Below are positions 13,291-61,659 of a stretch of 64,000 bases of DNA, piece after piece. Position 1 is the stretch's first letter, and each line of letters opens with the position of its first letter. The translations under genes and the position numbers were made by a program. This DNA comes from Mugil cephalus (Eukaryota > Chordata > Actinopteri > Mugiliformes > Mugilidae), in NCBI RefSeq assembly GCF_022458985.1, contig NC_061775.1:28442319-28506318 (forward strand). Reading direction: 5' to 3'. The notes below the pieces were generated by a model. The model searched no databases. It was not told the DNA's origin and was given only the letters and a program-made list of their open reading frames with translations.

Positions 13291-13343
13291 CAATCACAAA
13301 CATGGAGTGTTTCTGTAAAATAAAACTTGTTTGTCGTCCTCAG

Positions 13344-23223: not shown

Positions 23224-23659
23224 ATGATGAAGCCCAGAGAGACTCAGTGTCAGAGGAACCTCGGTGACGGTGAGTTCATGTTCATCAGAATAAAATAAAT
23301 AAAGTTTTAATTCAATAAACAAACTAAAGTACGACTGGAACTAAACAGAAGAACATATAAATGTTCTCCTCCCTCCAGGTTCTCGGTTCTTCACCAACAG
23401 TCGTGAGCGTTGGAGGCAGCTGAACGTGAACGGTGCGTTCGCTGACCTGAGGCGCCTCCTCCCCACACACCCCCCCGACAGGAGGCTCAGCAAGAACCAG
23501 ATCCTGCGCCTGGCGCTCAGGTACATCTCCTTCCTGGACCGGCTGGTGGAGGAGCAGCAGGAGCAGGAGGAGGAGCAGGAGGTCAGGGCGGCGCCCAGGG
23601 GCCGGTCAGGGAGCCTGGAGGAGGAGGAGGAGGAGGAGGAGGAGGAGGAAGAAGAGTAG
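23224..23659 (+). CDS. TAL/LYL-family bHLH transcription factor, compact and divergent
   Basis: Two coding exons, 23224-23269 and 23379-23659, join in phase to give 108 residues. The bHLH domain begins at about residue 18 and reads [20 protein letters not shown], then [20 protein letters not shown], then [20 protein letters not shown] and LSKN are signatures of the TAL1/TAL2/LYL1 subfamily, nuclear E-box-binding regulators that dimerise with E proteins in blood and neural development (family knowledge). The N-terminus before the domain is only about 17 residues. The C-terminus is a Gln/Glu-rich stretch ending in about 14 glutamates encoded by (GAG)n. Length equals that of human TAL2 from memory, but the wording of the basic region is nearer TAL1/LYL1, and TAL2 has one coding exon. 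Which paralogue it is stays open. TATA box and poly(A) signal bracket a transcript of under 1 kb. Confidence 0.85.
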
Positions 23660-24098: not shown

Positions 24099-24980
24099 AA
24101 TGAGCCAATATCACAGATTAAACCAGAGTCCATGTGATGAGACTCAGGTCCTGGTTCAGTTTCTATGAATCAGGGATTTGTCTCATGTTTGTGTTGAAGT
24201 GTGTGATGACAACAGATGAAAGGAGCTTTGTGAGGAGCTCAGAGAAAGAGTTGTTGTTGCTCATCAGGCTGGAAAAGGTTCCACAACCATCTGTAAAGAG
24301 TCTGGAAGCCACAAATAATCCACAGAGAGTCAGACAGATTGAAGACGACTGTTCCCCTCCACAGGAGTGGACCACCAACAAACATCACTCCATCATAGTG
24401 GGAGAGGAACCAGAGGAACCCAGGGGAACTTCTAAGCAGCTAAAGGCCTCTCTCACATTGGCTGATGTTCATGTTGATGAATCCACTCAACAACCAAAGA
24501 CACTGCTCTCTGTCCACAAAGAACATGTGGGACAATGTTTAGTGGACAGATGAGACCAGAGTAGAATAGTTTGGTTTAAATGTTTGGAGATGAACCAACA
24601 CTGCATTCCAGCATCAGAACCTCATCCCTCCATGACACATGGGGGCGCTAATGTCCTGGTTTGGGCCTGTTCTGCTGCATCTGCTCATCATTGATGGACC
24701 AATGAACTGTGAATTCTACCAGTGAACTCTGAAAGAAAATGTCAGGACATGAGTCCATGAGCTGAATGTGAAGAGAAACTGGGTCATGGAGGAAGACAAG
24801 GAGCCCAAGAACACCAGTGGTTCTCCAGAAGAACCAGATGAATGTTTAGGAACAAGTCAAAGTCCTGACCTTCATCCAGTAGAAATGTTGGAGCATCAGC
24901 TGATGAGAGGAAACCACCAACATCTCACAACTCAGCTGGTTCTGTTCTGGGATCAGATTAGAACCTGATCAGCTGTTACA
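24099..24980 (+). mobile_element. Tc1-like transposon relic, copy A
   Basis: Shares about 820 bp at very high identity with 51128-51972. Transposase remnants appear in the expected order across several frames: a 'catcaggctggaaaaggttccacaaccatctgtaaagag' block (translating near HQAGKGSTTICKES) at 24261, and 'ggacagatgagaccagagtagaatagtttgg' near 24545 (a WTDETR-like region). Frameshifts and stops interrupt it throughout. A 139-residue open frame at 24134-24553 is in the wrong frame. It lies immediately downstream of the TAL-like gene. Confidence 0.8.
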
Positions 24981-32382: not shown

Positions 32383-32544
32383 TTTAAATCTGAAAAACAG
32401 TCCGCGCAGAAGGAGGAGACGGGATGGGACGGGGACAACTTCTGAACCGGTACCGGAGACTTCCTGGTACACGTCGCTTTGTTGACACAACGTAAAAAGC
32501 GTCATTAACGTCAAACAGAACACGCCCCCCAGTTTGACTGACAG

Positions 32545-32640
32545 GTGGAACCGCCCAACCAATCAGAGCGCACAGAGTCACCTGCAAGTCACTACCCAGG
32601 GTTTAGTGCGCGATGCCGATACTTCTTAACCACAGAGGCG
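32545..32640 (-). promoter_or_regulatory. Probable fam174c promoter
   Basis: Upstream of the fam174c start the strand carries an inverted CCAAT box (ATTGGTTGGGCGG on the minus strand at about 32552-32564) in GC-rich sequence. No TATA box was seen. Confidence 0.45.
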
Positions 32641-35285: not shown

Positions 35286-38200
35286 ATGCCGACGTCCCGG
35301 CCTGGTTCGGAGCCGGTGGAGTTCTGGGTGGACGGGTCGAGACGGGACGGGACGGTGGAGGAGTTCTACACGCTGAGCGCCGAGCTGGGCAGGTCTGGAC
35401 GGAACCAGGGTCCGGGGGGGACCGAGGGGGTGCGAGGGGGACCGAGGGGGACCGAGGGTCCAGAGTCAGACATCTAGAGATTTATCATAATATTAAAGAG
35501 AGAAAGAAGTTTATTAAAGCCGTGATTTACCAGGATAATATTATTATTATTATTTATACATTTTAATCGTTCCAATGGTTTTAATTAGATTCATTTAACA
35601 TATAAAATTTATATTTTTAAAAATACAAATCCGCTCTTTAAAGTATTTATTTATTTTATTTGAAATATACATTTTACGTATTTACTAAAATAATAATTAT
35701 TATTATTGTTATATTTTACTAGTTCAGATGATTTTAATATGATTTATCGAAAATATTATTTAAAATTTATTTTAAAATTTGACAAAGTTAACTCATATGT
35801 GAAACATTATGATGTTATGTAATAAATTCACACATGTTTAAATGGACCGGACGGTTTTATTCCTGATAATAATTGTTCCGTCTTTGTTTCCGTGTCAGAG
35901 GAGCCACGTCCATCGTTTACCGCTGTGAGGAGAAACAGACCCAGAAACCGTTCGCCGTCAAAGTCCTGAAGAAAACGGTGAGTGGTCCAATGAGCCAGAA
36001 CATTATGACCAGGCCCAGCGGGGGTCACGTGCTGTCTTCCGGCCCGGGTTCGGTTCTGATCTCGTTCCGGTGTCTCTCTCTCCTGTTACAGATCGACAAG
36101 AAAATAGTTCGTACGGAAATCGGCGTCCTGCTGCGTCTGTCCCACCCGAACATCGTAAGTATCCGCCGCGTTAGTTTCCGGTTACCGGGAGTAAACGTCC
36201 GTTAACGAAACGTCTCCTCAGATCCAGCTGAAGGAAATCTTCGAGACGGACACGGACATCGCGCTGGTCCTGGAGCTGGTGACCGGAGGAGAACTGTTTG
36301 ACCGGTACCTCAGCCATCTTGCTTTAGTTTCCATGGTTACCGCCATCACTGCTGTCGCCATGGCAACGGTAACCTTGTTTCCGTTTCCGCCTCCAGGATC
36401 GTGGAGCGAGGTTACTACAGCGAGAGGGACGCGGCCCACGTCATCAAGCAGATCCTGGAGGCCGTGGCGGTAAGACCTGGGGACACCGTCCCCCGGGGAC
36501 ACTGTCCCCCAGAGAGAGACAGGGACGACAGGGACACTGTCCCCCAGAGACCCGGGGACACCGTCCCCCAGGGACACTGTCCCCCAGAGAGACAGGGACT
36601 ACAGGGACACTGTCCCCCAGAGACACAGGGACGACGGGGACACTGTCCCCCAGAGAGACAGGGACGATGGGGACACTGTCCCCCAGAGACACAGGGACTA
36701 CAGGGAGACTGTCCCCCAGAGAGAGACTTCATAGACACTGTCCCCCAGAGACACAGGGACTACAGGGACACTGTCCCCCAGAGAGACAGGGACGATGGGG
36801 ACACTGTCCCCCAGAGACACAGGGACTACAGGGACACTGTCCCCCAGAGAAACAGGGACTACAGGGAGACTGTCCCCCAGAGAGAGACTTCATAGACACT
36901 GTCCCCCAGAGAGACAGGGACTACAGGGACACTGTCCCCCAGAGACACAGGGACTACAGGGACACTGTCCCCTGATAATGAGAGTGGAAGTAGATCTTGT
37001 CCAGCTTGTTTGCGCCGTCATCAGAGTTAAACTAGTGTGATTCCTTTGTTTGACCCTGGAACAGAAGGTAAAGCCCGTTGATGAAAACCAGAGGAACCCG
37101 TTGGTTCTTTGAGAACCCGTTGGTTCTTTGAGAACCCGTTGGTTCTTTGAGAACCCGTTGGTTCTTCCTGGTGTGGACGTTGTCATTTTTCATGTCTTTC
37201 AGTATCTGCATGAGAACGGCGTCGTTCATCGTGACCTGAAACCAGAGAACCTGCTGTACGCCGACCTGTCGCTGGACGCCCCCCTGAAGATAGGTAAGAA
37301 CCACCAGGTCCCACTGGACCCCCTTCAGATAGGTAAGAACCACCAGGTCCCACTGGACCCCCTTCAGATAGGTAAGAACCACCAGGACCTAGGACACAGA
37401 CTGTATCAGCTCGATGGGCTAACACAAGCTAACACAAGCTAACACAGAAAAAAATGAGGAGATCATTTTTTAAACAACTTACAACAGATTGTTTATGTTT
37501 TGGTGAAACTTAATTACCTTAATCCTGTGAGTGATTGGCAGGTGTCATGCCACGCCCCCTAAATCCAGTCAGGCCGCTGCTTATTGGTCCAGAGCTGCTG
37601 GTGTCAGAGTGGGAGGAGCCAGGTGTATTACTGGATCTCTGATCCATTTCCTCAATGACTTTGGAGGAAAAGTTGGAAAAACCATGTTCCAATAACTCAA
37701 AGGGACAAACGACAAAATCAGAGGTTTTGTGTTTCTTGAAACGTCTGGTTAACTTTTCTGTTTTCCATGTGTGGCTTTTAGAGGAGACACAGCACGAACC
37801 CACTGAGGAACTGATGTGAAACATTAGTCAGACAGAATTAGAAACTATGGACGCAGAGCAAATCACATCAGAAACATCATTAAGCTGTTGGTGTTGTGAT
37901 TCAGCGCTGGAGGCGTAGGCTGGTGCAGTGACACTGCTTCAAACCACGTCTACGAGGATCCTTCCAGACACCGAGTCTTTCATTCACTCAGTCAATATTC
38001 TCAGCTGAAGCTACAAAATTAGACTTTTTCCATTATTTTGTTAATATTTCTCAGTAGTTGCATCTTTTTATTTAACATGAAAACACAAAATGTGTTAGTG
38101 AGATGTTGTGATTGTCATGTCAGGGTTAGAAGAAGAAGTGACCGAATAGTTTTAATAGAACAACAACAGCAACAACAGCAACAACAACAACACAACTAAA

Positions 38201-41200
38201 GCTTCATATCTTGAGTCTCTTTGAAACCAGTTGGGTTTTTTAGTTTAGTTTGTTCCTCTGAGGATCTGAGTCCGTTAAAAAGGCCGAGTTCTGCCTTTAA
38301 ATGCAGTGACCCAGCATCATTTTCACTTTCTGCTCGTGTTGGTTCATTATTTCATCCTGTCATATTATTCTGTTCTACTGTGTCAGGTTCAAACTGAACC
38401 ATCTGTTCATTCACTAAACCTGAGGCGTCATTACGAGGCGACGGCTGTGACCTCTGGACCGACCGCCTCCTCGTAATGATGTCGACCTGTACCTGATGTA
38501 CCTGATGTACCTGATGTACCTGATGTACCTGTGTCTGATGTAGCCAATGTGTGTTTTACAGCGATAATTAAATATTTGATTATCACACATTCATTACCAA
38601 ACACACACCAGCCGCCACTGGACACAGTAAACAGTAAAAAACAAAGTAAATGATTAATATAATAATGAAACAGAACAGAACTAGCCTCCTCCTCCTCCTC
38701 CTCCTCCTCCTCCTGATCAGACCTCCTTTTCTCCTCCTCCAGCTGACTTTGGTCTTTCTAAGATCGTTGATGACCAGGTCACTATGAAGACCGTCTGTGG
38801 TACTCCCGGATACTGCGGTGAGTACATGATGCAGTACATGATGCAGTACAAGTATTCAGTGGTGCAGATGTAGACAGTGTATTAGTGTAGTGGTATAGTT
38901 GTAGGTAAATATTGTGATAGTAGCAGTTTATACCGAATCATCCAGTCGTATTAAGAACCAGCAGTAGATGGTGTATTACCATTAATATTATAATTGTATT
39001 ATTAGTATTAGTACTAGTAGTATCAGTAGTAATATTATTAGTAGTGGATGTGTTTAATGACCTGTGTTGATGGGATGCTGTGATGCATTCACTGCATCTG
39101 TCGCTCTGTGGGATTTCTCAGTGAGTTCTGCTCTCAGCCATCTGGCCACTAACAGACTCCTCCTCCTCCTCCTCCTCCTCCTCCTCCTCCTCCTCAGCTC
39201 CAGAGATCCTGAGGGGAAACGCCTACGGGCCTGAAGTGGACATGTGGTCAGTGGGCGTCATCCTCTACATCCTGTGAGTCCATTAACGCCTCAGTTCATT
39301 TAAATGTCCCCGGGCTGGTACAGTAAACACAAGTCATGATGGAGGCATCTCTTCACCCTGGACCAGGTCCAGTCTGGACCCATCAGACCTCATGACCTGA
39401 GTCTTTGTGCTGCTCCCTTTCAGACTGGAGCCTTTTTTCCCGGTTGTCCTCCCTGATCAGTGGTTTTCTGTTCAGTCCCTTGAGTTCCCTTCACATTGTC
39501 CATGGTGTGAAATGTTCTTCCTTCCACTATTAAACACAGCCCTGAGTTCTACTGCTGCTTTTCTTCCAAACGTTTCTCCATCAGTCAGGATTTATTTCTT
39601 CCTGGTAGACCATGGTTCTCCACTGTCCTTCCAGTCTGGAATAAAGGTCTTAAGCCAGTTTTAGTAGTTTCTAGATGTTTCTCCACCAGACTAACATCTT
39701 TTGTGTCTTTACACATGGTTGTTGAAGCGTACTGATGTGCTTATTTATGAGCCAACCGTCTCCTTGTGTTTCTAACTGCTTGGTTTCCTGGTGTCCAGAC
39801 TCTGTGGGTTCGAACCATTCTTCGACCCGAGGGGGGATCAGTACATGTACAGTCGCATCCTCAACTGCGACTACGAGTTTGTGTCTCCGTGGTGGGACGA
39901 GGTCTCCCTCAACGCCAAGGACCTGGTGAGTTCTCCCACCTCTGGAAACACGAAGAGGTCCTGAATGTGGATTTAGAATATTTACTGACTTGGTTCTGTC
40001 CTCAGAGTTAGTTTTTGTGTCTGAGACCCGTTTGAACTCGAGTCTGGTCTCTAAAAGACGTCCAGGTTGATCCTGGAGACTCCACCGTAGGGACTCGTCT
40101 CTGACTTGTCTGACCTGGATATGACCAGTTTGACTGGGCTTGATTTTTTGAACAGCTTGAAACATCCTAAAGTATTTTGTCTGTTGGAGACGAGACTAGT
40201 TTGTTATGACGTGAACGTTCCTCTGATCAGAACAGATTTGTCCTAAAAGACTTGAGAGGGGACATTTTACTAGGACTCGTCTCAAATTACATGGATTTAC
40301 TTTGAACTTTGTCTGGAAATGATTTGGACGCATCTTATCTTGACTTAGCTAAAACCTGTTTGAAGTGGGTTGACTTGGACTTGTCTCAGAAAACTTGGGT
40401 TTATTTTTTGTCTAAAACTTAATCTGGACTTTTGAAACGACTTGAGACTTGAGCTTGCTCTAAGTGTCTTTGTTAGAACTTGAGATCAATCACGGATGGA
40501 GTTGGACTTGTATTAAAAGACTTGTGTTGGTTTTGGGACATGTTAAAGTATTTGTTTAGTCTGAGACTGAATCTGGACTTGTCTGGTACGACTTGGCACT
40601 AAATCCTACGACTTGATGAGATCAGAGAACATTTATTCTGGGACGAGTGGACACTCGAAACGTCTAGAATGAACCTGGACTCGCTTCATTACCTGGAGCC
40701 TGAACTCGTTCGTGTCCCGTTGGTCCGTGTCCAGGTCAGTAAGCTGATCGTCCTCGACCCTCATAAGCGCCTGAGTGTCCGGGAGGCCCTGCAGCACCCC
40801 TGGGTTCTGGGTAAGGCGGCCCGGTTCTCCCACATGGACACCACCCAGAGGAAACTGCAAGAGTTCAACGCCCGGCGCAAACTTAAGGTGAGTGACTGGA
40901 TGACGGGACAAAGACGGTCAGAACAAAAACACGAAACGCCAACGAAGAGACATTCACAACAGAAACAGAACGAAAACCAAACGGGATCAAGAGTGAAACA
41001 TCGTGTCATGACACGTCACCTTGACCTGAAACCTGTTAACAGCCCCAGCTCCGCCCTTTAAATGCTAATTATCTGAACCACATGACTCCGAGGTTCTCAA
41101 TCATCCAGGTAAATCCAACAAAACAAGACAAAAACAATCTGGATCAAACTCATCTGGACCTGTTGTGGTTCTAGAAGACGTTTCATCCAAGAGTTCAGCT

Positions 41201-42636
41201 CTAAATGTTTAGTTTATCACCTGGAGGTCACATGACACTAGTCTGCTTATGACCTGATACTCACCTAGACCAGGACCTGGAGGAACCTGTTCTGATCCCA
41301 ACTCCTTTCACTGATTAATGATTCTCTAGTTACGTATCCAATAAACAAGCTGAAACTGGACCAAGTAGAAGCTACGTAGACGAGTGATTAAAAGTCTGGA
41401 AACTCAACCTCTAGGACTAGTGTCAACAGAGACAACATCCAAACCGGTTCCTCCCGTTCCAGGTTCAGGTTTAGTATCTGGTTAATAAACCAGGACATGG
41501 ATGACTGAGAACCAGCGTAACGTCCTGGAATAACCCTTAAAGCAGGTCTTACCTTTCTGGCATTTTCACACTTTTCTTTTCTCGTCCTAAAATGCTCCTA
41601 ATAACTGTATGATAATAAAACTCATCAGGTGTTTACTTCATATATTTCTGATAAAAGTCTGACCAATAGTTTTATTATAATGGTCTGATTAAGTTGCAGA
41701 GTTCCTTCTAGTTAATGCTGCTGTGTCCTGTTTTACTTTGAGATTAGAGAAGAAAATAATGTTGAGGCTAAATGGCTGAAAGGGGCTAAAGTTACAACAG
41801 TCTAAAGCCTGGGACCCAAACAGTTGCAATGGTTCCTAATTTAATGGCTTTATTACAGACCGGTTAATGTAACCGAGGGAAGACGTTGGTCAGACTTTCA
41901 GAATTTTATACCACAGAGAGACCTGCATTTATTCTGTTATTGTTTTCACGCTGCTTCTACCTTCACTTTCCCACCACATGCATTAGGGAACAGGGGAGAA
42001 GTCAGGGAGGGGGTGGTTGAGTTGTTCATGGTTAGATTGGCAGAATGGTGGGAAGTGTTTTAACATGCAGAGACTCTGGTGTGAAGGTGAACGTGGGTGA
42101 AATCATTGTCTCGTGTGCGACAGGCTGCCATGAAGGCCGTCGTGGCCACCAGTCGGATGCACGAGGGCTCACGGCGTCGCACCGACAGCTGTGAGATTCC
42201 AGGTTCAGGGACTTCACGGCAGAGCAGCATGCAACAGGACCCGCCTCCCGAATCTACAGGCCCCGCCCCCACAGACACGAAGGCTCCACCCCCGGACCAG
42301 CAGATGCCACAGGAAGCTGAAACCAAGCCCGCCGTCCAAAGTGCCCTCAGCCCCTCCCCTCCATCCAGCCCCAAACTGCCCATCTGTGATGTCACAGCCA
42401 AAGGCCCCGCCCCCACCAGACCTCCGTTGCGTGCCGATGGGCTGCGACAGATGTCCGTTATTCCCAAAACCATGCTGGTCCAACCCCGGCTGCCTCAGAA
42501 GAGCTGCTCCGTCATAGAGCCCACCACCAAGGACGAGGCCACGCCCCCGCTAGGCACGCCCCCGAATCCGAACAACCTCAGCAACGGCTTCACGTCAGGG
42601 GCGGAGCCTAGCAGTAAGACCGCCCACTGCCAGTAA
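35286..42636 (+). CDS. camk4: Calcium/calmodulin-dependent protein kinase IV
   Basis: Serine/threonine kinase activated by Ca2+/calmodulin and CaMKK, phosphorylating nuclear targets such as CREB (family knowledge). Eleven exons: 35286-35392, 35899-35977, 36092-36154, 36222-36304, 36397-36469, 37203-37293, 38743-38817, 39198-39273, 39799-39925, 40735-40887 and 42124-42636. All phases agree and all sites are GT-AG; 1440 bp give 479 residues (human about 473). Motifs in order: GATSIVY of the Gly loop, FAVKVLKKT with the ATP lysine, [10 protein letters not shown] catalytic loop, [21 protein letters not shown] with the activation-loop Thr, DMWSVG, then [19 protein letters not shown], the autoinhibitory and CaM-binding region. 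The last exon encodes a Pro/Ser-rich tail instead of the acidic tail of mammals. Minisatellites follow the donors of exons 5 and 6, and the exon 6 repeat duplicates the donor itself. Confidence 0.95.
36470..36975 (+). repeat. GGGACACTGTCCCCCAGAGA minisatellite in camk4 intron 5
   Basis: About 15 variant units of roughly 32-34 bp begin within a few bases of the exon 5 donor (gtaagacctggggacaccgtcc). Every unit contains GGGACAcTGTCCC, arms of 6 bp around one base, so the array is a chain of potential small hairpins. There is a higher-order period containing 'agagacttcatagacactg' (36721 and 36883). Confidence 0.95.
37087..37170 (+). repeat. 19-bp minisatellite GGTTCTTTGAGAACCCGTT
   Basis: Four to five copies just before camk4 exon 6. 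The unit has inverted arms GGTTCT and AGAACC around a 3-nt loop. Confidence 0.95.
37281..37386 (+). repeat. 39-bp tandem repeat duplicating the camk4 exon 6 splice donor
   Basis: The word GATAGGTAAGAACCACCAGG starts at 37289, 37328 and 37367, a period of 39. Copy 1 contains the true exon end (ctgaagatag|gtaaga after 37293). Copies 2 and 3 provide the same donor, cttcagatag|gtaaga, after 37332 and 37371. The frame stays open through all three. Use of later donors would add 13 or 26 residues ([13 protein letters not shown] per unit) between LKI and ADFG. Confidence 0.95.
38686..38715. repeat. (CTC)n upstream of camk4 exon 7
   Basis: About nine CTC units about 30 bp before the acceptor of exon 7; part of the pyrimidine-rich 3' intron. 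A 12-bp repeat (ACCTGATGT) lies at 38491-38533. Confidence 0.9.
39160..39197 (+). repeat. (CTC)n forming the polypyrimidine tract of camk4 exon 8
   Basis: The tract runs directly into the acceptor cctcag at 39192-39197, so a microsatellite serves as the polypyrimidine tract. Confidence 0.9.
39330..39700 (-). mobile_element. Tc1-like transposase relic in camk4 intron 8
   Basis: Read on the minus strand, the stretch contains 'tctgatgggtccagactgga' and 'ctggtccagggtgaagagat' (39350-39395), resembling the DESRL/LFQSDGR region of Tc1-like transposases, and many other transposase-like words. Stops and shifts break it. It lies antisense to camk4. Confidence 0.55.
40020..40660. repeat. Degenerate GACTTG/CTGGACTT-rich repeat in camk4 intron 9
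   Basis: Poorly conserved units around 'gacttgtct', 'ggacttgtct' and 'gactcgtctc' recur every 25-60 bp. It looks like an old decayed minisatellite. Confidence 0.6.
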
Positions 42637-47023: not shown

Positions 47024-48041
47024 GTGTAAACAAGCTAATAATTAACAAGAAATTACCAGCAGTTGACGTTTATGCTGCTCTTTTTGTAATTAGTAAAAAT
47101 ATCTTCCTCTTTATTTTTCATAGGGGCACAATGTTTACATTTAAAGGTTCATTCATTTGTTAAAACTACTAAAAGTACTTTTACTAATCAGCCTGAGACT
47201 TGGTCAACGAGAGGATCAGGAACATTCTTATATCAGATTGATATGATAGATGATTGTTAATAAATCATTTATGTTTCGAAAGACACAGATGAATTTTCAG
47301 CTTTAACCAGAGCAGGATTCAAGGCTGCATGAAGTTTAATCTAGAGTTTCTGTTTAATCATACGAGCCTTAAACTTTACCTGTTAAACCTGCAACTACAC
47401 GATATCTGTGACTCTACTGGACTCGTGAGGTCCAGACCAACAATAATCCGACGTGAATATAAATCCTTCGAAATAACGCTTTGTTTCAACATATTTTATT
47501 GAGAATATTAATAAAAATTTAGTGAATCGCGTCAAGATTTCTACTCAAACTATTTCTGATATTTGTCTGAACCCGAGCAAACAGAACGAAGTCACCTGAA
47601 CGCTACAGCAGAAGAAACAAAAACAAGTCTAATTTAATTCAACATGTTGCTGAAAATACTCAAACACTAAGAAAGTAGATCAAACAGTGACAGGATGTAT
47701 TTACATTGGACTCTGGAAAGAGTTTAATTATAAAATGTTTGATTACTAGAATCAGAGAAGGCTTTTAAAGAATCGTGTGATCAGGACGTTAAAATAAAAC
47801 ACAACCAAACCAGAAAACGTATTTCCAACAAACACTGAATCTAAAAGTCCTAAAGGTTTGAACAGTTCAGCAGGTTCATCACTTTTCTGGATCGTCTGTT
47901 GGTGTCAGATTAATCAACATTTTGTTACTTTTCTTTTATCTAGTATCATTATAATTCCCAGCTGGTTTTATCCTCATAATAATAGTTTACTTTAAACATC
48001 AGTCAGAACCACAACTTGAGTTTAAAGTAGGTGCTACAGGA

Positions 48042-48052
48042 GGAATCGAACC
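48042..48052 (-). other. B-box-like motif downstream of the C1 exon
   Basis: The minus strand reads GGTTCGATTCC, the tRNA T-loop/B-box consensus, within GTCACAGGTTCGATTCCTCC. No full tRNA fold was found around it. It is probably a SINE remnant in the 3' UTR. Confidence 0.3.
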
Positions 48053-48072
48053 TGTGACCTTGGTGTCGTCAC

Positions 48073-49651
48073 TCAGTCGTCTTCGCAGAGTTTCTGTCTG
48101 AACTCTCGTCCTTCTTGAATCGTCCCACAAGAATACGAGGACTCGGGCCTCCAGTCGGCTGCCGGCACCTCCCACACTGAGATGGCGCTGTAGCCTCCTG
48201 CAGACTTAGGCCACGGACCGTCGCAAGTCATCGCTGCTGTGTCATCGATCCACCACAGGAGGCGCTGCCGGGCTGAGCTCAGCCCGTCCAAGAGGCAGAC
48301 CAGCAGGTGTGGAGAACCAGGATCCTGGAGAGACTGGGCCGCAGATAAGATCTGAACAGATGGATGGACGGAGGAACCTGAGGGCGAAGGAGGGTTTAGT
48401 GTTTAGTGTTCACTCCAGGCGTCCTCTGTTTTATTTTTAATCTACATGACTCAATTTATCCCCTAAAACATTCACAACATGATTTAAACTGTCCTCAGTT
48501 ACATGAAGTTGAATATTTTGTTATATCCACAAAAAAAAGTTTTTACAAACCTAAAAATCTCAGAGAAACGTTACCACTGTGCTATTTCATTCTCCTCCTC
48601 TATGCAGACGATACTCTAGTCTGTTTTAAGTAATTCTCTTTTAAACTGGCTCTTACAAAACAGCCATTAGTTTCTACAAATGAACTCACAAACAAATTAA
48701 AGAGAATTTAGAGAAACAAAAAAACTGTTTTAGCATCTTTTTACCAGTTAGCAGTTACAGTTCCCATTAGAGAAACTATTTAACCCTGATTTTACAGACC
48801 TAAAAATCTCAGAGAAACGTTACCACTGTGCTACGTCATTCTCCTCCTCTATGCAGACGATACTTGATGATAATTTATTTAACCTCAGTAATTCTCTTTC
48901 TTTTAAACTGACTCTTTCAAAATGGCTGTTCATCTCTGCAAATAAACTCACAGAGGATTATTTAGTTTTTTTAAAAAGCAAACCAAAGAACAAAGCAGCA
49001 CCACAACTGTTTTAGCATTTTGTATCGATTAGGGAGTTAGTTTAAAGAGTGTTCGTAAACTTCAAGGTACTAGGAGGGTTAAAAGTATCTATACTTTTTT
49101 TTCTATATTGTATGTGTCACATTGGACACTACAATTCCCATGAGCCCTTGCAGCTTCCTATCCAGTGATAGTGAATAAAGACCTCAGGGGGCAAGTAACA
49201 GAACAGTATAATGACCTATAAATGTTATTTAAAAACAAGTAAATTAGGGAAATTATTAAATTTAATAAAATATCCTCCAAAACAAATTAGAGATGTAAGT
49301 TATTTCCACTGAAGAATTTCTTTGAGTTCTATGTAATTTTCACACTTTTTAGAGGATCTGTGTTAAACCTGCTGTCTTGTTGTGGTGGTTAAGAAGCTCA
49401 TCATCATCATCATCATCATCACATTCCACCGTCACGTCTCCAGGAGAGATGTTCACCAGGAGTCGAGTGCCGGGACTGAAAACCATGGAGAAGGCGACGG
49501 ACTGTTTGCTGGGCATCGAACCAACGGAGAAACACCTACAGTCGCCGGAGACAGACGCTGGTCAATGAATCTGAAAACTGGGTTTAACTTGATGAACTCA
49601 TTGTGTCGAGACTCACCCCAACAAGATGATGAAGGTCACTGCTGCGAACAT
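48073..49651 (-). CDS. Immunoglobulin C1-set protein, light-chain-constant-like (candidate lambda-5-like gene)
   Basis: The sure part is the exon 48377-48073 on the minus strand, opening after a canonical acceptor (cgccctcag) in phase 1. Its translation has HPSVQILSA, LLVCLLDGL, LLWWIDD, GYSAISVWEVPAADW, SSYSCGTIQEG and the end KLCEDD-stop. This is the plan of an Ig light-chain constant domain: first Cys, Trp 14-15 residues on, YSC at the second Cys, and a Cys near the C-terminus where light chains bond their partner. Upstream on the same strand a leader exon (49651-49617, MFAAVTFIILLG, phase 2 donor gg|gtgagt) and a 35-bp exon (49570-49536, FIDQRLSPATV) join it in compatible phases to give 124 residues. 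The 35-bp exon would end like a J segment (TVG|). Its donor tag|gtgttt is weak, so the 5' model is tentative. No V exon or RSS adjoins. It could instead be a decayed light-chain cluster. Confidence 0.55.
48530..48960 (+). mobile_element. Non-LTR retrotransposon relic with YADD remnant, locally duplicated
   Basis: The translation near 48585-48630 reads LLLYADDTLV, the catalytic YxDD motif region of LINE reverse transcriptases. The block 'acctaaaaatctcagagaaacgttaccactgtgct' at 48550 recurs at 48799 with its own 'tatgcagacgatact'. Two overlapping partial copies or a local duplication are therefore present. Nothing is intact. Confidence 0.7.
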
Positions 49652-49739
49652 CGTGAAGACCCGTTCGACTCTTTCTGTCTAAAACAGCCAAGGAATAAAA
49701 CCTTCCTATTATTTATCTTTGGTCAACTTGACCCCATTC

Positions 49740-50000
49740 AATGTTTAACGTCTCCATATACATGATGGACATTTACTCCATATTTAATGACTTCTCATCA
49801 TTTTATGGGGTCACTGGCCTCGACTCTTGATCATAGTTTTTCATTCCAGGTGTTATAGAAAATAAGAATATGAACTTAGAAATGACATAAAGACACTTAA
49901 ACACGTCTCTAATTTCTCATTTATTAAAAGAGCTGTTTATGTTGTCAACGAACAAAGAGAAAGAACCTGACACATAAACTTGGTCATTTTCTTTTTTAAC
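49740..50000 (+). repeat. Interspersed repeat of unknown class, copy 2
   Basis: 'ataagaatatgaacttagaaatga' at 49863 and 'atatttaatgacttctc' at 49780 recur in inverse complement at 62100-62250. 'aaagagaaagaacctgacacataaac' at 49954 recurs at 21601. Confidence 0.65.
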
Positions 50001-51127
50001 TGGTAATTTTTTGGAGGTTTATATTAGTTGAGTCAAATTGAGAACCAACGATAAAAAGTGTAATAGAAGATTTAAATAAAAAAAACATGCTCATAACAAC
50101 ATAAAACAAATACAATGATCTTTAAATAAATGTCAACAAAATGATTTGTTTTTAACTTTAAATGAAAATCACATTAAGTGTCTTAATTAAAAAATCTCCC
50201 AACCAAGATTTGTACCTTAAATAAAATTTTCTTTGGAAATAATTTCATTTCTAATTTAAAGATCAAAAGCATCATAAATAAATATCAGTTTAATTCAAAG
50301 TAAAATTGGAACGATATCAGGTTTTAAATAAAACTAAATTTTAACTTAATGTAAAGAAAAGTTCAAATAATAACATGTCTGAATAAAACAGATTTTTAAA
50401 CACAACAATAATAATGATGTTGTTTTACTGAAGAATATATGTTTCATATTTTTTAAATAAATGAAGATTATTATAATAATAATCAGTTCAAAGTTGTCAT
50501 ACAGAATATTTTTGTTTAATTTTTTTTCTAAAATTATTGTCCCGATAAAGTCGACGTGTTACCTGACGAGTGCGTCCCTGATGTTTCTGCAGCTAAAAGT
50601 TAAATCAGGAAACTTAAAGAGTCTGGAAAACAGAGAAACTGCTGGAGCAGAACCCAACGTCTCCAGAGGAAGAGCCTGCAGGGATCAGCTGAGACCGTTG
50701 CTGCAGTCAGTTGGTGGACGACAAAAAAACAGGAAATTTTCTGTTTTTGTTGATCAGATTCCTGTTAAACCGTCACATCATGAAACAACGTCTCATATAC
50801 TATTCTGCTCCAAAGCTGGTGAATATAAAAAGTCTAATGAGACTCATTAAATGAGCAGCTTTAGTAGCTTTATTTTTTAAATTATGAACTCGATAATATC
50901 ACCGACAACCAACAAAACACATTCAAGACAAAAAAGAAAACTTTAAAAACTCAAAATAACCTAAATACACAAAGTGCTGCTAAAAAAGATTTTGTGTTCT
51001 TCAAAATTTTCTACATTTCTGCTCAAAACATCAAAAGATTTTCCACAAGTCCTGAAAGTAGACAGAGAGAACCCTTAGAACACAGTAGAACACAATAGAA
51101 CACAACAGAACACAATAGAACATGTTG
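50001..51127. other. AT-rich intergenic DNA, no gene recognised
   Basis: Low-complexity A/T-rich sequence with a run of 'agaacacaatagaacacaa' units at 51078-51120. The 129-residue open frame at 50461-50850 resembles no family I know and has no splice context. Confidence 0.55.
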
Positions 51128-51972
51128 AATGAGCCAATATCACAGATTAAACCAGAGTCCATGTGTTCAGACTCAGGTCCTGGTTCAGTTTCTATGAATC
51201 AGGGATTTGTCTCATGTTTGTGTTGAAGTGTGTGATGACAACAGATCAAAGGAGCTTTGTGAGGAGCTCAGAAAAAGAGTTGTTGTTGCTCATCAGGCTG
51301 GAAAAGGTTCCACAACCATCTGTAAAGAGTCTGGAAGCCACAAATAATCCACAGAGAGTCAGACAGATTGAAGACGACTGTTCCCCTCCACAGGAGTGGT
51401 CCACCAACAAACATCACTCCATCATAGTGGGAGAGGAACCAGAGGAACCCAGGGGAACTTCTAAGCAGCTAAAGGCCTCTCTCACATTGGCTGATGTTCA
51501 TGTTGATGAATCCACTCAACAACCAAAGACACTGCTCTCTGTCCACAAAGAACATGTGGGACAATGTTTAGTGGACAGATGAGACCAGAGTAGAATAGTT
51601 TGGTTTAAATGTTTGGAGATGAACCAACACTGCATTCCAGCATCAGAACCTCATCCCTCCATGAAACATGGGGGCGCTAATGTCCTGGTTTGGGCCTGTT
51701 CTGCTGCATCTGCTCATCATTGATGGACCAATGAACTGTGAATTCTACCAGTGAACTCTGAAAGAAAATGTCAGGACATGAGTCCATGAGCTGAATGTGA
51801 AGAGAAACAGACAAGGAGCCCAAGAACACCAGTGGTTCTCCAGAAGAACCAGATGAATGTTTAGGAACAAGTCAAAGTCCTGACCTTCATCCAGTAGAAA
51901 TGTTGGAGCATCAGCTGATGAGAGGAAACCACCAAATTCCTCCAAGATGCTGTAGACACTGATCAGCTGTTA
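51128..51972 (+). mobile_element. Tc1-like transposon relic, copy B
   Basis: Near-identical to 24099-24980 for about 800 bp, including the same disabling changes. It has a 14-bp deletion after 51809 relative to copy A and a different end, though both finish with tgatcagctgttac. The shared defects mean that both copies derive from an already broken element. Confidence 0.8.
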
Positions 51973-52299
51973 CCTCTCTGATGTGTTATATTGACTCATT
52001 TTACTGAACAACAGTCTAACATTTATGTTTCTTGTGTAGTTGGGTTCCTTTTATAAAGAAATGTAGAAAATTCTGAAGGATCTAAAACCATTTCAGCAGC
52101 TTTCTGAGTATTTAGGTTATTGTGTTGTTTAGTTATTTGTTCATTTTCTGTCATTAAATAATTAAATCAACTTGTAAAGAGTCTTTTTAATAAATGCACT
52201 GACTCAAACACTTTGACAAACTTGAGTTTATTTATTAAACCATGTAGATTCATACAAAGATCAGAAGAAGTAAAGGTGAAGAGCAGTTATGTCTGGACC

Positions 52300-53650
52300 C
52301 TATTTCTTAGTGAGGGTCAGCGGTTTGTTCTCGCTGCCTCTGCTGATCCCACAGTAATAATCAGCCGAGTCGTTCTGATCCAAGTTCCTCAGCGTCAGCG
52401 AACCGTTGGCGGCAGCCGAGATTTTCTCAGGACCGACGCCGTCGCCGTACTTCTGGACAAAACCGGTCATGAACCCGAGGGTGACGAGGAGCTGAGGCCC
52501 ACCTCCAGCTGCCTTCCTGTACCAGCTGAGGGTGGAGGCCCTGGTGGAGGTGGTGGCGGAGGTGGTGGTGGAGGCATCCAGCAGGGGGCACTGCAGCACG
52601 GCGTCCTGTCCGGCTCTCACCTGGACGGTGGAGGCCGGGGAGGCGGTGGCATGAAGCTGAAGACCTGGACAAGGTTAAAGGACCAGAGGGGAGGAGTTAG
52701 TGACATCTAGAGGTGAAGACGCACATTACAGCTTCTCTTTCTGCTCATAACACGATGAAAACTTCTACCAAACTTTATCCAGCTGTACATGTTCATGGAT
52801 GTATTATATATTCTCCCATGCTAATTCTGTACATTGATTTTTTGCTTACACTATTTATATATTATATTGATATATTTTAATTTATTTTAATTGGTCTTTC
52901 TTTTTCTTGTTGTTCTTTTATCTGCAACTGAGTTACTGTGACCAAGCAACTTAGATTTAATTTCTTCAAACAGGTCCCTTAAACTTTATACTTATAACAG
53001 AAAATATGATTAATAAAACAATAAAAAGCAATAACCCAAAAGTCACCTGAATGTGAGAGTTCATATTAGATAAAAAGTCCAGATGGCGATTAAATAAAGA
53101 GATTTATCACAATATTGTTTATTGTAAGTTGAAAGATTAAAGGGCAAGTGTAGAGAATCTAGTGACATCTAGAGGCGAAGATGCAAATTACAGCCTCAAA
53201 CTCTTTTATTTCTGTTCTGATAATGACACAGTGAAAACATAATCATGAAAACTAGATTTAATTTCTGCAAACAGGTCCCTTGAAGTTTATTATAATCACA
53301 GAAAATATGTCTACCAATAAAAAGCCGAAATTACTAAATGTGAGTAAAACTTTAAACAAACATTAGAACGAGAGTTCTTATCAAATAAAAGTCAAGATGA
53401 ATATAAAATAAAAATATTTCTTTTCTTGTGAATTCATGTGTTGATTATTTTTCCCTTTAGACCAAAACAAAAACAGAAAAGATCAAGTTCACTGACAGAA
53501 AACAGTTTTCAGTTCTAATGAATGAGTGAGACCAGGCGGGAATGTCTTATTTTAGGGGGATTTTCAGGTGATTCTTTAAAATGAAATGCTAAAAGCTGAC
53601 TCACCGCTGAGAGCGAGGACCAGCGTCCAAAGCAGAGCAGAATCCATCAT
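52300..53650 (-). CDS. Secreted single V-set immunoglobulin domain protein (VpreB-like)
   Basis: Exon 1 (53650-53605) encodes the leader MMDSALLWTLVLALS with a phase 1 donor g|gtgagt. Exon 2 (52664-52300) follows the acceptor ttgtccag and encodes the whole domain, 136 residues in all. V-set features: QVRAGQDAVLQC (Cys 41), LSWYRK (Trp 63), GGGPQLLV, KYGDGV, an NGS glycosylation site at 102, and LDQNDSADYYC (Cys 120). After GISRGSENKPLTLTKK the frame stops. There is no transmembrane segment, no J motif (FGxG) and no RSS heptamer after the last Cys, so the gene is not a rearranging V segment. It is best described as a germline V-only protein, like VpreB or fish secreted Ig-domain proteins. An in-frame upstream ATG at 53689 is possible. 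AATAAA on this strand near 52230 would serve as poly(A) signal. Confidence 0.78.
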
Positions 53651-53699
53651 CGACTGACGGAGGAAACTCATCCTGCTGCTGTTGTTCATCAAATCAGTC

Positions 53700-55040
53700 G
53701 AGCGTTTCAGTAAAAACATCTCCAACGAACTCTCGATGTGAAAAAAACCTCGTCTGTTCTTCCCTGTTTTTAAACACCTGGTACATTTAGATCCTCGGCT
53801 CTAAGAGGAAACTGGCACAAATAGACCAGTAACGTACCTGCAGAGTATATACGGGAATCTTTAAGTTAATTTCAATAGATTTTTAAGACTTTTTCCAGAC
53901 CTTCTCAGTATTTTTTAATATCTGACGCCATCAGTGACACCTTTAACTTAACAGTTTTAGTTTACAATAAAAGCTATAGACCACTATCATACAACAGAAT
54001 GTGAATAGGAGAATTAATCTAAGACTGAACACATGTTTAGTATATAAACACAAGTATAAAGTCAAAACTAGTTCCATGCATATACAACAGTTTGTCAGTT
54101 ATTCCATCGGTTCACAGAGAAATCAGATTATAAATACTTTCACTTTGTTGAAGCACCTTATCTTCCTATGTATGTTGTGTTTTTTAGGTGTCCTTGTCCT
54201 ATTCTGTGTTTTTATTTTTCTACATCAGTATTTTATTGTCTTCCAATACCAGCCTGCTACGACGACCTCATTTCCCTTCGTGTGCCTCTGAATTTCCGCC
54301 CACATAAGTTCTGGGACAAGTCACATTTTTTCAGTGTTTTTGGATTCAACCTCAAAATATAACTCAAAAAGCCTTCAAATTTTAAGTCATGATAAAACTT
54401 TTTAACCCTTTTTAAGGGTCTTAATTTACCCAACTTCTCAACCTTTAATACTTTTCAAGACTCTGCAGACGCCCTGACTTATACACTTTTAATGCTTCAC
54501 GTAATAATTCACACCAACAACTGAATCATTTGGAATTCATAAAAACTAAATCTGCTTCACTTTGTCTGGTTCTGGTTCTGGTTCTGGGAGGACACAGTTG
54601 ACCTGTCCCAGATGCTTCATAGGGGACTAATGAAACTTAAACTTAAAATAATAGAAAATAATGTGTTATAACTTAATTAATATAACTCATTTATTTAAGG
54701 AAAAAGTCATCATGTCATATTACTTTATTCTTATTGTTACATCACCGTCATCTTCAACGACTAAGCTCAGTGACCTCGTTCTAGACCAATATTACATCTG
54801 GATGCTGCAATATGACATTTAATATTTTACTGTAGCTGAACACGGCTCAACACGTTATATCAAACTGGACCAAGTCTGTCATTAACGTTGTTACGGTGAC
54901 ACTGATGAAAAAGTACCGTCAGCAGCACATTTGTTATGTGGTGGAATATGATCCTACTTCACACAGTTGTTCTTCATTTAAAAGTCTGATCACCCTAAAA
55001 TCTAAAACTTCAATGTTGCCTTTAACTGCGGTGACAAGCT
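53700..55040. other. Intergenic, no gene recognised
   Basis: AT-rich DNA. Open frames such as 54001-54291 are Phe/Leu-rich and without splice context. Confidence 0.55.
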
Positions 55041-55045
55041 TCTGC

Positions 55046-55690
55046 TAGAAGCCATTAGCCTATCACTAGCCTCCTGTTAGCCGCTCGCTAGCCTCCCATT
55101 AGCCTGCAGCAAGTCTCCCTTTAGTCTCCCGTTAGCCTCCGGCTAAATTCCAGCTAGTCTCCCGCTAGCCTCCCGCTAGTCTGCCATTAGCCTATCACTA
55201 GCCTCCTGTTAGCCTCCGCTAACCTCCCATTAGCCTGCAGCAAATCTCCCGTTAGCCTCCCATTAGCCTGCAGCAAGTCTCACTTTAGTCTCCCGTTAGC
55301 CTCCGGCTAAATTCCAGCTAGTCTCCCGCTAGCCTCCTGTTAGCCTCCCGCAAGTCTGCCATTAGCCTATCACTAGCCTCCTGTTAGCCTCCCGCTAGTC
55401 TGCCATTAGCCTATCACTAGCCTCCTGTTAGCCTCCCGCTAACCTCCCATTAGCCTATCACTAGCCTCCTGTTAGCAACCCGCTAGTCTGCCATTAGCCT
55501 ATCACTAGCCTCCTGTTAGCCCCCCGCTAACCTCCCATTAGCCTATCACTAGCCTCCTGTTAGCCTCCTGCTAGTCTGCCATTAGCCTATCACTAGCCTC
55601 CTGTTAGCCTCCAGCTAACCTCCCATTAGCCTAGCGCTAGACTCGCCCGTCCCATTAGCCTCGCGTTTGCCTCCCATTAGCTTGCCTCCA
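55046..55690. repeat. Minisatellite of CTAGCCTCCTGTTAGCCTCC words
   Basis: About 650 bp of units around 'cattagcctatcactagcctcctgttagcctcc', with a common higher period near 60 bp. It is related in sequence to the inverse-orientation GCTAGGAGGCTA family at 7.9, 57.7 and 60.4 kb. Confidence 0.85.
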
Positions 55691-58645: not shown

Positions 58646-60048
58646 TCAGTGCTGTGCGTCTCCAGACCAGTTGCTGTTGAGGAACAGCATCATGTTGAGG
58701 TTCTCCGGCTCGATGGCGCTGCGGCGGGAGCAGAAGTGATCGCCTGCAGCAGAGAAAGCTCTCTCTAAGGGGACGGCGGTGGAAACGACTCCCAGCTGTT
58801 TCAGGGCGAGTTTGCTCAGGTCCCCGAACATGTCCTTCCCTTTGTGTCTCCACCAGGACAGAGGGTTGGACTCCTCGGGGGTGGGGGGGTAATCCATGTA
58901 CGTGTACAGCTGGTTCTGGATCTTGGTGGCTTGTTGAGCTTTGCCATTGCTCAGATCCTTTGTGATTTTATCCAGGGCCAGTTTTCGGTTTCTGTCTCCC
59001 AGCTGGTCTTTGTAGCGGGGGTCCAGGAAGGTGGCGGTGGCCATTTTGTAATTGTTGATGTCTCCAAATTCCTCTTTACACTTGGTCAGTAACTTCTGAG
59101 CCACGTTGTTCTTTTTCCTTTTCTCTTCCTCCAGTTTTTCCATGAGCGTCTTCAGAACCGGCAACATGACTGAGATGGTCTTGAAGCCTTTGCCTTTCAG
59201 CATGGAGATGGATTCTCTCAGAGGCTCCAGGGCAGATATGATCTTCTTGAGGTTCTCCTTCTCTGTTTCATTCAGAATGAGTTCCGTCTTCTTGCTGTTG
59301 TTGAACACCATCACCATGACCTGGTACTGTTGGTCGAGCCGCTGCAGCATGTCCAGCCACGCCAGCCATCGTTCTCCAGAGTACATGATCAGCTCCTCTG
59401 GTTTCACGCCGAGTTTGTTTTGCAGTTTCCTGAGCTCCGTCACGGCTGCAGAGTCGTACTTAAAGAACCGGACGATGTTCTGACACTTCCTGAGAACGCT
59501 GGACAGGTCGTCGTCTCTCATCAGGACCTTAAACACCTCATTCAAGGTGTCGGCAAAGCAAGGTATGTGCGTCCATCTTGCTTTTACTTTCTTCAGCTGT
59601 GGCATGCCGGCTCTGATGACGGCGTGGACCTTTGGTGTCACGCCCCAGTCCTCCATGACGGCCGACAGCTGGATCTGGATGTTGTCTGCAGACTCGTCTC
59701 CAAACAGGCTGGTGGTTTTGAGCATGAAGGACTTGAGACTCCCCAAGTTATCAACAAAATGGCAGCCGATCGTCAGAAAGGAGTCCTCAGGCCTTGAGGA
59801 CCACAGCTCACAGGTCAGGACTATGTCGTCGGCCGAGGCCAAGATGTGTCGCAACTTTTGCTCCTCTTCATTATAAACTTTGGGGAGCAGTGAACGCATC
59901 ACAGGCACCGTAGGAATTGCCACAGAGGAACTTAGAGCTTCGGCAAAACCAAGAAAGTTTGGATCTTCGGGGATTTCCAAAGGCTGAAGGTTTGATACGA
60001 TCATCTTCAGGAGGCGTCTTTTCACCGTTAGGATTCCACTGGGTCCAG
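58646..60048 (-). CDS. ZBED/hAT-transposase-derived protein (3' terminal exon)
   Basis: A long open exon of 467 codons on the minus strand that begins after the acceptor tttctctccacag, in the middle of a codon, so 5' coding exons must exist to the right. The BED zinc finger is not in this exon and was not found in the window. The exon has the RNase H-like core of hAT transposases and, near the end, the dimerisation region VPLERAFSAAGDHFCSRRSA then NLNMMLFLNSNW. LDPRYKD and ERWLAWLDML are also typical. The expected Asp of the first catalytic block reads TCELWSS, and the usual CxxH reads CFADTLN, so catalytic residues seem lost while the frame is fully intact. This favours a domesticated nuclear protein of the ZBED type over an active transposon. 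The initial MNLFLSTA of the longer frame is intron. Confidence 0.75.
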
Positions 60049-60424
60049 CTGTGGAGAGAAACAGATTCAAGGGTCAGGATGTATTTTATAAATAAATAAA
60101 GTAGCTTCTTCACGTCGTAACGTCTGACACAAACTCTACGAGTCTGGTCGCACTTGTTCTTCGGTTCCTGTGAATGACCTGGACGACCGTCATAGACATC
60201 AGCCCCATGTTTGTATCTGTGACACAAGTTTGTTTATCTTGTTTCTCCTGCTCTTCTTTCCTCTCAGTCTTCTCTGGTTTTCTAACGTTAAACTGCAGAT
60301 TCTCCCCCGACCTCCAAACCCAGGGTCCTGGGAGGGCAGCTAGCGCTCAGGCTAACCCTGCGCTTATGCTCAGAATTCCAACCTTGTTTAAATCCAAAGT
60401 AGCTGCTTCCATGTTGTGTGCTCA

Positions 60425-61252
60425 TTCTACATTGTTAGCCTCCCAGCTAACAGTAGCTCCTCCTAGCTTGTTAGCCTCCCAGCTAACAGTAGCTCCTCCT
60501 AGCTTGTTAGCCTCCCAGGTAACAGTAGCTCGTCCTAGCTTGTCAGCCTCCCAGCTAACAGTAGCTCTCCTAGCTTGTTAGCCTTCCAGCTAACAGTAGC
60601 TCGTCCTAGCTTGTTAGCCTTCCAGCTGACAGTAGCTCCTCCTAGCTTGTTAGCCTCCCAGCTAACAGTAGCTCCTCCTAGCTTGTTAGCCTCCCAGCTA
60701 ACAGTAGCTCGTCCTAGCTTGTTAGCCTCCCAGCTAACAGTAGCTCCTCCTAGCTTGTTAGCCTCCCAGCTAACAGTAGCTCGTCCTAGCTTGTTAGCCT
60801 CCCAGCTGACAGTAGCTCCTCCTAGCTTGTTAGCCTCCCAGCTAACAGTGTAAGCTCTCCTCAGACATTGTTTAGCCTTCCAGCTAACAGTAGCTCGTCC
60901 TAGCTTGTTAGCCTTCCAGCTGACAGTAGCTCCTCCTAGCTTGTTAGCCTCCCAGCTAACAGTAGCTCGTCCTAGCTTGTTAGCCTTCCAGCTGACAGTA
61001 GCTCGTCCTAGCTTGTTAGCCTTCCAGCTAACAGTAGCTCGTCCTAGCTTGTTAGCCTCCCAGCTAACAGTAGCTCGTCCTAGCTTGTTAGCCTTCCAGC
61101 TGACAGTAGCTCCTCCTAGCTTGTTAGCCTCCCAGCTGACAGTAGCTCCTCCTAGCTTGTTAGCCTCCCAGCTAACAGTAGCTCCTCCTAGCTTGTTAGC
61201 CTCCCAGCTGACAGTAGCTCCTCCTAGCTTGTTAGCCTCCCAGCTAACAGGA
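60425..61252. repeat. 36-bp minisatellite, inverted relative of the 28-bp family
   Basis: About 23 units of 'gttagcctcccagctaacag' plus 'tagctcctcctagctt'. One interruption (gtgtaagctctcctcagacattg) lies at 60848-60870. Period 36 gives endless 12-residue repeats in several frames (SWEANKLGGATV on the minus strand). Orientation is opposite to the array at 57.7-58.6 kb, so the two flank the ZBED exon as inverted repeats. Confidence 0.95.
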
Positions 61253-61659
61253 GGTTGGTACGTTTCCACTTCCAGAGAAATAAGAAGAAGCCAATACTCG
61301 GATAATGGGGTCAATCATTAGCGAGTGTGATTAAACGAATCATCTTCCTGCAACAAACATTATCGTTGTTGACTCAAGTAAAATCAACAAGTGTGCGTCA
61401 GCCTGAACCTCAGACGTTCCACTTGGTCAGTGAGTACGAAGGAACACAGACGAGCTGCAGCCCAACAATCAGGACCTGGTCTGGACAGAATCCATCACAG
61501 TGATGTCTGCTCTGCAGATTAGACGTCTGTCTGAGTCGCTGTGACGCTGTGCAGATAATAAGCTGATGAGGTAAAGGCCGGTGTCTCTTTACTGTCACGG
61601 CCTCAGCGCATTTTAGGAAACACCTGCTCCAACAACCAACCGCCTATTGGTCTATTTCT

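Follow-up and report, generated by a model that had tools for sequence, protein, structure and literature searches.

A V-only gene beside a J-like/C1 gene in Mugil cephalus: a candidate surrogate-light-chain-like pair

Do fish build a surrogate light chain from two separate genes, as mammals do from VpreB1 and IGLL1 (lambda-5)? The question is raised by two neighbouring immunoglobulin (Ig) genes of Mugil cephalus. They lie in a 64-kb stretch of NC_061775.1, here contig C6 (C6:28442319-28506318), which we call the window; one encodes a single V domain (V gene) and the other carries a C1 domain (C1 gene). An initial annotation had proposed that they could be a surrogate-light-chain-like pair or two relics of a light-chain cluster. 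We suggest that they are the counterpart of the fish genes sid1 and si:ch211-1a19.x and that their products would together make a light-chain-shaped, non-rearranging heterodimer, a reading to which we give a probability of about 0.62. Whether fish check the heavy chain before the light chain is disputed: PMC9365674 argues for a pre-B stage and PMC9614664 against it (published work is cited here and below from excerpts). A match to the zebrafish and medaka pair would help to settle whether fish test new heavy chains as mammals do.

Structure of the two genes

The features on which the argument rests are the following (a slash marks the splice site).

53671 and 53689, minus strand: in-frame ATGs upstream of the V gene start, which could extend the leader
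53605..53650, minus strand: V gene exon 1, leader (MMDSALLWTLVLALS-), ATG at 53650, phase-1 donor G/GTGAGT
52300..52664, minus strand: V gene exon 2, V-set domain, acceptor CCAG/, ending YYCGISRGSENKPLTLTKK and stop, no recombination signal sequence (RSS)
52231..52236, minus strand: AATAAA, nearest past the V gene stop
49617..49651, minus strand: C1 gene exon 1, leader MFAAVTFIILLG, phase-2 donor GG/GTGAGT
49369..49535, minus strand: C1 gene exon 2 (CFSVGSMPSKQSVAFSMVFSPGTRLLVNISPGDVTVECDDDDDDDELLNHHNKTAG), acceptor TGTAG/, donor CAG/GTTTAA (phase 1), alternative donor further 5' at 49423
49454..49480, minus strand: J-like motif FSPGTRLLV, inside C1 gene exon 2, in frame 5' of C1
48073..48377, minus strand: C1 gene exon 3, C1-set domain, acceptor CCTCAG/, ending ...FRQKLCEDD and stop
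47495..47500, minus strand: AATAAA, nearest past the C1 gene stop; ATTAAA variants at 47728 and 47638

In the predicted two-exon model of the V gene, leader and V-set exon join in phase across a GT-AG intron. The predicted product has 136 amino acids including the leader (MMDSALLWTLVLALSGLQLHATA...NDSADYYCGISRGSENKPLTLTKK, then the stop), and the V exon matches the Pfam family V-set with E = 1.3e-10. Between its first Cys and the Trp the protein has 21 residues; the last Cys is followed by 16. No GT lies between the V Cys codon and the stop, and we reject a fusion of V to C1 by splicing on that ground.

The C1 gene lies about 2.6 kb downstream on the same minus strand, which agrees with the initial annotation. 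Its three predicted exons (49651-48073) encode a leader, the J-like motif and the C1 domain in one frame throughout. The C1 exon matches the Pfam family C1-set (E = 5.8e-05, 23.8 bits at a cut-off of 21), lacks by eye the C..xFYP motif of usual C1 domains, and reaches its stop codon immediately past the domain. The 3' end of exon 2 is uncertain among three candidate donors, at 49369, 49423 and 49477. Of all GTs tried between 49520 and the end of the open frame, only these preserved the C1 frame; the others put the C1 exon out of frame. With the donor at 49369 the frame is open through the C1 exon and the predicted product has 168 amino acids; the donor at 49423 (AAT/GTGATG) leaves out a run of Asp; the one at 49477 (TCA/GTCCCG) is a poor site and would split the J-like motif, which is retained with the other two. 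The second gene had been described as C1-only with a C-terminal Cys. The Cys stands, in the ending KLCEDD before the stop, but the gene also has a leader and a J-like exon. Because the second gene thus combines leader, J-like motif and C1 domain, the surrogate-light-chain-like reading is strengthened, and it is the best reading of the pair. Taken as a whole, the interpretation of the initial annotation is partly supported.

Exon 2 encodes ...SKQSVAFSMVFSPGTRLLVNISPGDVTVECDDDDDDDELLNHHNKTAG, in which the J-like strand reads VFSPGTRLLV. FSPGTRLLV is the sole match to [FW]..GT.[LV].[VI] in the six frames of the window, where 0.32 matches are expected (first-order Markov model, 60 shuffles), and it is identical at 6/9 positions to a real J of the Mugil cephalus genome, FGGGTRLEV. 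J segments elsewhere in this genome, for example WTFGGGTRLEVG and WTFGGGTKLTVD, are each preceded by an RSS; the motif of the window is not.

Absence of recombination signals

A pattern for 12/23-RSSs gave zero matches on both strands of 47500-54200. As positive controls, the same pattern found RSSs after 3/3 TRAV-like segments in locus L002 and beside the J segments of L006, L007 and L035. The initial description of the V gene as a leader and a single V domain with an in-frame stop and no RSS is confirmed. Likewise, no heptamer occurs in the 60 nt past the V Cys of the window gene. Among 44 distinct antigen-receptor-like V frames from other loci of this genome, some of them near-copies, 42 have a heptamer at most 60 nt from the Cys and 41 a nonamer at fitting distance; the heptamer is missing in L059 and in the NITR-like L097. 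This control set passed over the window V, because its 21-residue Cys-Trp gap exceeds the regular expression used, and also seven other V loci of the Ig superfamily (IgSF).

The ordinary Ig light-chain (IgL) genes of this teleost, on contigs C14, C7 and C17, share V-set and C1-set domains with the window pair. A rearranging IgL requires an RSS after V and before J, and nearly all V frames read on these contigs have theirs and the J segments are preceded by one, whereas the window genes have neither.

Kin elsewhere in the genome

We searched the genome itself (635 Mb, 24 contigs). At E <= 0.001 the V search returned the window V and a single weak match, which lies in a TRAV-like cluster on C17 (39%, E = 6.7e-4, one stop). 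The C1 search returned, up to E = 10, the window C1 and 11 others, the best on contig C20 (29%, E = 4.9e-4; IgH-like by eye) and the next being CL-like exons on C17 (CL and CH, light- and heavy-chain constant domains). Neither domain has a close copy in the genome, and exon 2 of the C1 gene has no other convincing match there (next E = 0.22, 39%, one stop). Among these V and C1 matches there is no other Ig gene on C6. Separate C1-set and V-set searches placed light-chain-like genes on C14, C7 and C17 and none on C6 among the matches listed. They scored 150 of 395 and of 2536 candidates, so that this count of light-chain genes is a lower bound, and the window's own V and C1 domains are likewise not among the matches listed. 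In viral contigs, none of 27 and none of 2 pattern matches was confirmed as a relative.

On C14 (G000:C14 23.1-23.4 Mb and 24.66-24.86 Mb) two families of light-chain V, CRTSQ... and CRSSS.../CKASE..., are interleaved about 1.2-1.4 kb apart in several loci (e.g. L063, L069, L081). These stretches also hold C1-set exons, mostly in opposite orientation.

The pair could be what remains of an ordinary V-J-C light-chain cluster after the loss of its RSSs, nonfunctional or marginally expressed. On one strand the parts succeed one another as in such a cluster: V, then J-like, then C. Yet the frames are open, leaders are present, the C1 gene has a leader exon of its own, the splice sites are usable, RSSs and close copies are absent, and no light-chain gene lies on C6 among the matches listed. 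We therefore disfavour the relic reading of the initial annotation and regard it as improbable.

We also considered the C1 gene as a stray IgH exon, for which the nearest match on C20 and a weak grouping with CH rows (see below) speak. We set this aside, as the gene has a leader of its own and is isolated on a different contig; a remote descent of the C1 domain from a CH domain is conceivable.

The published pair in other fish

The initial annotation knew of no surrogate light chain described in teleosts. This no longer holds: zebrafish sid1 and si:ch211-1a19.2 and medaka sid1 have already been proposed. In zebrafish, sid1 and si:ch211-1a19.2 are reported to be co-expressed in rag1/2+ B cells, in the same module of these cells and with no light chain detected, and PMC9365674 proposed a pre-B stage with both genes. 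That they are VpreB/lambda-5 counterparts is their authors' speculation and is disputed. PMC9614664 describes the two genes as adjacent and in the same orientation. In medaka, an unannotated sid1 (chr4:24323750-24324064) lies beside si:ch211-1a19.3 as in zebrafish and is found only in rag1-high clusters (PMC11759298). Furthermore, sid1 is among lymphoid-progenitor markers (PMC10948150), igic1s1 is a predicted IGLL1 homologue in zebrafish pre-B leukaemia (PMC6365377), and a VpreB/lambda-5-like role was raised for sterlet sigma chains (PMC5985310). Older reviews state that no surrogate light chain was found in fish (PMC3570791, PMC5192425), and the excerpt of PMC6070721 holds nothing on fish genes of this kind.

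The window pair is likened to these genes by their published descriptions, in which expression is reported for zebrafish and medaka only. It has a V-only Ig gene with leader, a stop after the V domain and no RSS, and next to it a C1-type gene in the same orientation; the zebrafish partner is described in the excerpts as an Ig domain, not as C1. A further difference is the J-like strand, noted in the window partner and not in the published passages: no such strand is described for si:ch211-1a19 genes in the open-access literature searched, full texts and supplements lying outside the search.

On the published expression we can judge a further alternative, that the products of both genes are secreted Ig-domain proteins of innate immunity and take no part in receptor assembly. 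A zebrafish viral-infection paper (PMC2997011) does use the phrase 'secreted immunoglobulin domain'. The place of sid1 and its neighbour in the rag1/2+ B-cell module, and the restriction of medaka sid1 to rag1-high clusters, make this very improbable.

Sequence comparison, phylogeny and structure models

In the PDB the V sequence finds its best matches in antibody V domains; several of these are named as light chains, which we take to be lambda-type. The C1 sequence matches light chains, IgA, IgY and IgM there, and lambda-5 at E = 0.0016. In a phmmer comparison of 11 rows the C1 domain scored 29.7 bits with CH L004, 23.5 with CL L035, 21.5 with lambda-5, 14.1 with CL L046, 5.3 with a T-cell receptor (TCR) C domain and 3.9 with pTalpha (pre-T-alpha); identity to lambda-5 is 29% over 68 residues. 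The V domain scored 18.3 bits with IGLVb, 16.6 with IGLVa, 16.0 with a NITR-like row, 14.8 with VPREB1 and 13.3 with TRAV. The labels IGLV a/b/c, CL, CH, TRV, NITR-like and IgH-like were assigned by eye and by contig.

Each tree comprises 20 hand-picked rows. For V, the window domain and human VPREB1 were joined by 14 rows from 13 of the loci that supplied the 44 V frames and by 4 further IgSF V exons; for C1, the window domain was set with 2 human rows and with 4 CL, 6 CH, 3 TCR C and 4 MHC/B2M-like ones drawn from 30 + 14 + 12 loci. A group of the window V, two TRAV-like rows and one IgSF row is separated from the light-chain V rows with support of only 50/69, and the tree drew long-branch warnings. 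The window C1 stands beside three CH rows (86/86), with long end branches listed. In the approximately unbiased (AU) test, V held with IGLVa (p = 0.048) or IGLVc (p = 0.015) is rejected, and V with IGLVb (0.154), all fish IGLV (0.311), TRV (0.146) or VPREB1 (0.383) is not. For C1 the p values are 0.126 (all CL), 0.108 (kappa-like CL), 0.124 (CL L035), 0.134 (CL with lambda-5), 0.073 (lambda-5) and 0.314 (pTalpha).

On a point raised by the initial annotation, whether the domains belong to an ordinary rearranging isotype, the trees are of low resolution: isotypes a and c are rejected for V, and IGLVb, all IGLV and all CL are not. The relic explanation draws support from the latter values and loses some by the rejection of isotypes a and c.

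The same test bears on the idea that the C1 gene encodes a pre-T-alpha-like chain of fish, next to which the V gene would be an innate Ig-domain gene in its own right. Besides surviving the test with human pTalpha, the C1 domain resembles pTalpha, by eye, in having no C..xFYP motif. The phmmer score, the lowest of those given above, points the other way, and a pre-T-alpha chain would have a transmembrane segment after the C1 domain; here the stop follows directly in the same exon and there is therefore no transmembrane part. We reject the identity with pTalpha, and the idea as a whole has very little probability.

The best of five single-sequence structure models of the V protein has a last strand that ends at residue 108, with predicted local distance difference test (pLDDT) values <50 at residues 1-9 and 110-120. 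The model is weakly consistent with an absent strand G. A Foldseek search of this model against the PDB placed human VpreB (2h32_A, E = 1.2e-4) at rank 5 of 1998 (E up to 10), behind 6war_B, 8wu1_H, 9uco_B and 7tfn_L (E = 9.2e-5 to 1.2e-4).

A possible split surrogate light chain

By analogy, the pair would most likely act as a split, non-rearranging light-chain substitute or as a chaperone for the mu chain. As in the mammalian surrogate light chain, the parts would be divided between a V-only gene and a J-like + C gene; the scores of the window C1 with lambda-5 and with ordinary CL are much alike, and it has the C-terminal Cys. With its J-like strand next to a V domain that possibly has no strand G, the partner may reproduce the strand-sharing geometry of VpreB and lambda-5. 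The window pair differs in several respects. The V tail of 16 amino acids has no acidic run, whereas VpreB1 tails are 16-38 amino acids long and most are acidic (PMC9614664); the 168-residue partner, read by eye, has no GPRC motif, unlike lambda-5; and the window contig has no IgL gene among the matches listed.

We suggest that assembly would proceed in the following steps. The V protein, VpreB-like and stopping 16 residues past its second Cys, and its lambda-5-like partner would enter the endoplasmic reticulum (ER) of rag+ B-cell progenitors. There the J-like strand of the partner could complete the V domain as strand G, while its C1 domain would pair with CH1 of the heavy chain and its C-terminal Cys would form a disulphide to the heavy chain. 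Finally, a new mu chain might be retained, tested or chaperoned ahead of light-chain rearrangement. A V gene free of RSSs, and a neighbour in which J-like strand, C1 domain and terminal Cys come together, offer a concrete and testable model of assembly. It is a tentative proposal, to which we allow somewhat less than an even chance, that a split surrogate light chain works in teleosts and that in it the C1-gene protein gives its J-like strand to the V protein as strand G. If true, the split surrogate light chain would be ancient in teleosts (zebrafish, medaka, Mugil cephalus) and would thus predate the eutherian one or have converged on it; PMC9614664 holds that surrogate-light-chain genes are eutherian-only.

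A number of points weigh against the proposed counterpart of sid1 and si:ch211-1a19.x. The first Gly of FGxG is missing from the J-like motif, which sits in a longer exon with no in-frame donor directly after it, and the V tail KPLTLTKK might itself act as strand G. The V tree places human VPREB1 inside the IGLV a/c rows (90/91), away from the window V, and lambda-5 does not group with the window C1. The trees thus leave both domains unplaced: they are neither put into a rearranging isotype nor shown to be kin of VpreB/lambda-5. The V model is weak (mean pLDDT 62.9, the five ranging from 46.0 to 62.9), the C1 model, also from the single sequence, is unusable (mean pLDDT 46.6), and the Foldseek E values of VpreB and of ordinary antibody V domains are nearly equal. 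In the literature, PMC9614664 places zebrafish sid1 nearer VpreB3, notes that si:ch211-1a19.2 has no GPRC motif, does not accept it as IGLL1, and argues that zebrafish lack a pre-B stage. Orthology to the zebrafish and medaka genes, known here by published description, is something that we infer, as are assembly, disulphide and function.

These points bring in a VpreB3-like chaperone, in which the V protein alone would bind nascent mu in the ER, the C1 gene would encode a secreted Ig-domain protein that is unrelated or acts on its own, and no pre-B-cell receptor would form. The placement of sid1 with VpreB3 and the denial of IGLL1 orthology for its neighbour, both from PMC9614664, argue for it. 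So does the short V tail, 16 amino acids past the Cys, in which the window V, like VpreB3 by its description, is a V domain with little behind it. We know of no lambda-5-like partner of VpreB3. The adjacency and common orientation of the genes, the reported co-expression and the J-like strand and C-terminal Cys of the neighbour fit a two-part light chain instead, and we consider the VpreB3-like chaperone unlikely.

Neighbouring genes and repeats

Exons of a CaMKIV-like kinase (window 35873-42633, plus strand) adjoin the Ig pair; Pfam finds Pkinase pieces in 4/5 frames tested, the name being given by eye. They are a possible synteny marker, and a repeat array lies within this stretch at about 36400-36970. 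Further away are an Ephrin gene (13324-13674, plus strand, E = 2.5e-36), a basic helix-loop-helix gene (23345-23656, plus strand, HLH E = 1.7e-16; TAL/LYL type by eye) and a FAM174-like small membrane protein (32086-32562, minus strand, E = 5.4e-4, under Pfam's cut-off). Inspection of open reading frames showed no clear gene in the 9.9 kb that follow the window on its right.

Two near-identical frames (24122-24550 and 51151-51579, both plus strand) are by eye pieces of a Tc1-like transposon; the second, in which Pfam has no match, is located between the V gene and the C1 gene. A hAT-family transposase frame with 475 open codons occupies 58649-60073 (minus strand, Dimer_Tnp_hAT E = 5.4e-12). 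Two minisatellites were recognised by eye, one at about 55060-55500 with TTAGCCTCC-type units and one at 60538-61314 with a coding-like repeat of the KLGGATVSWEAN type.

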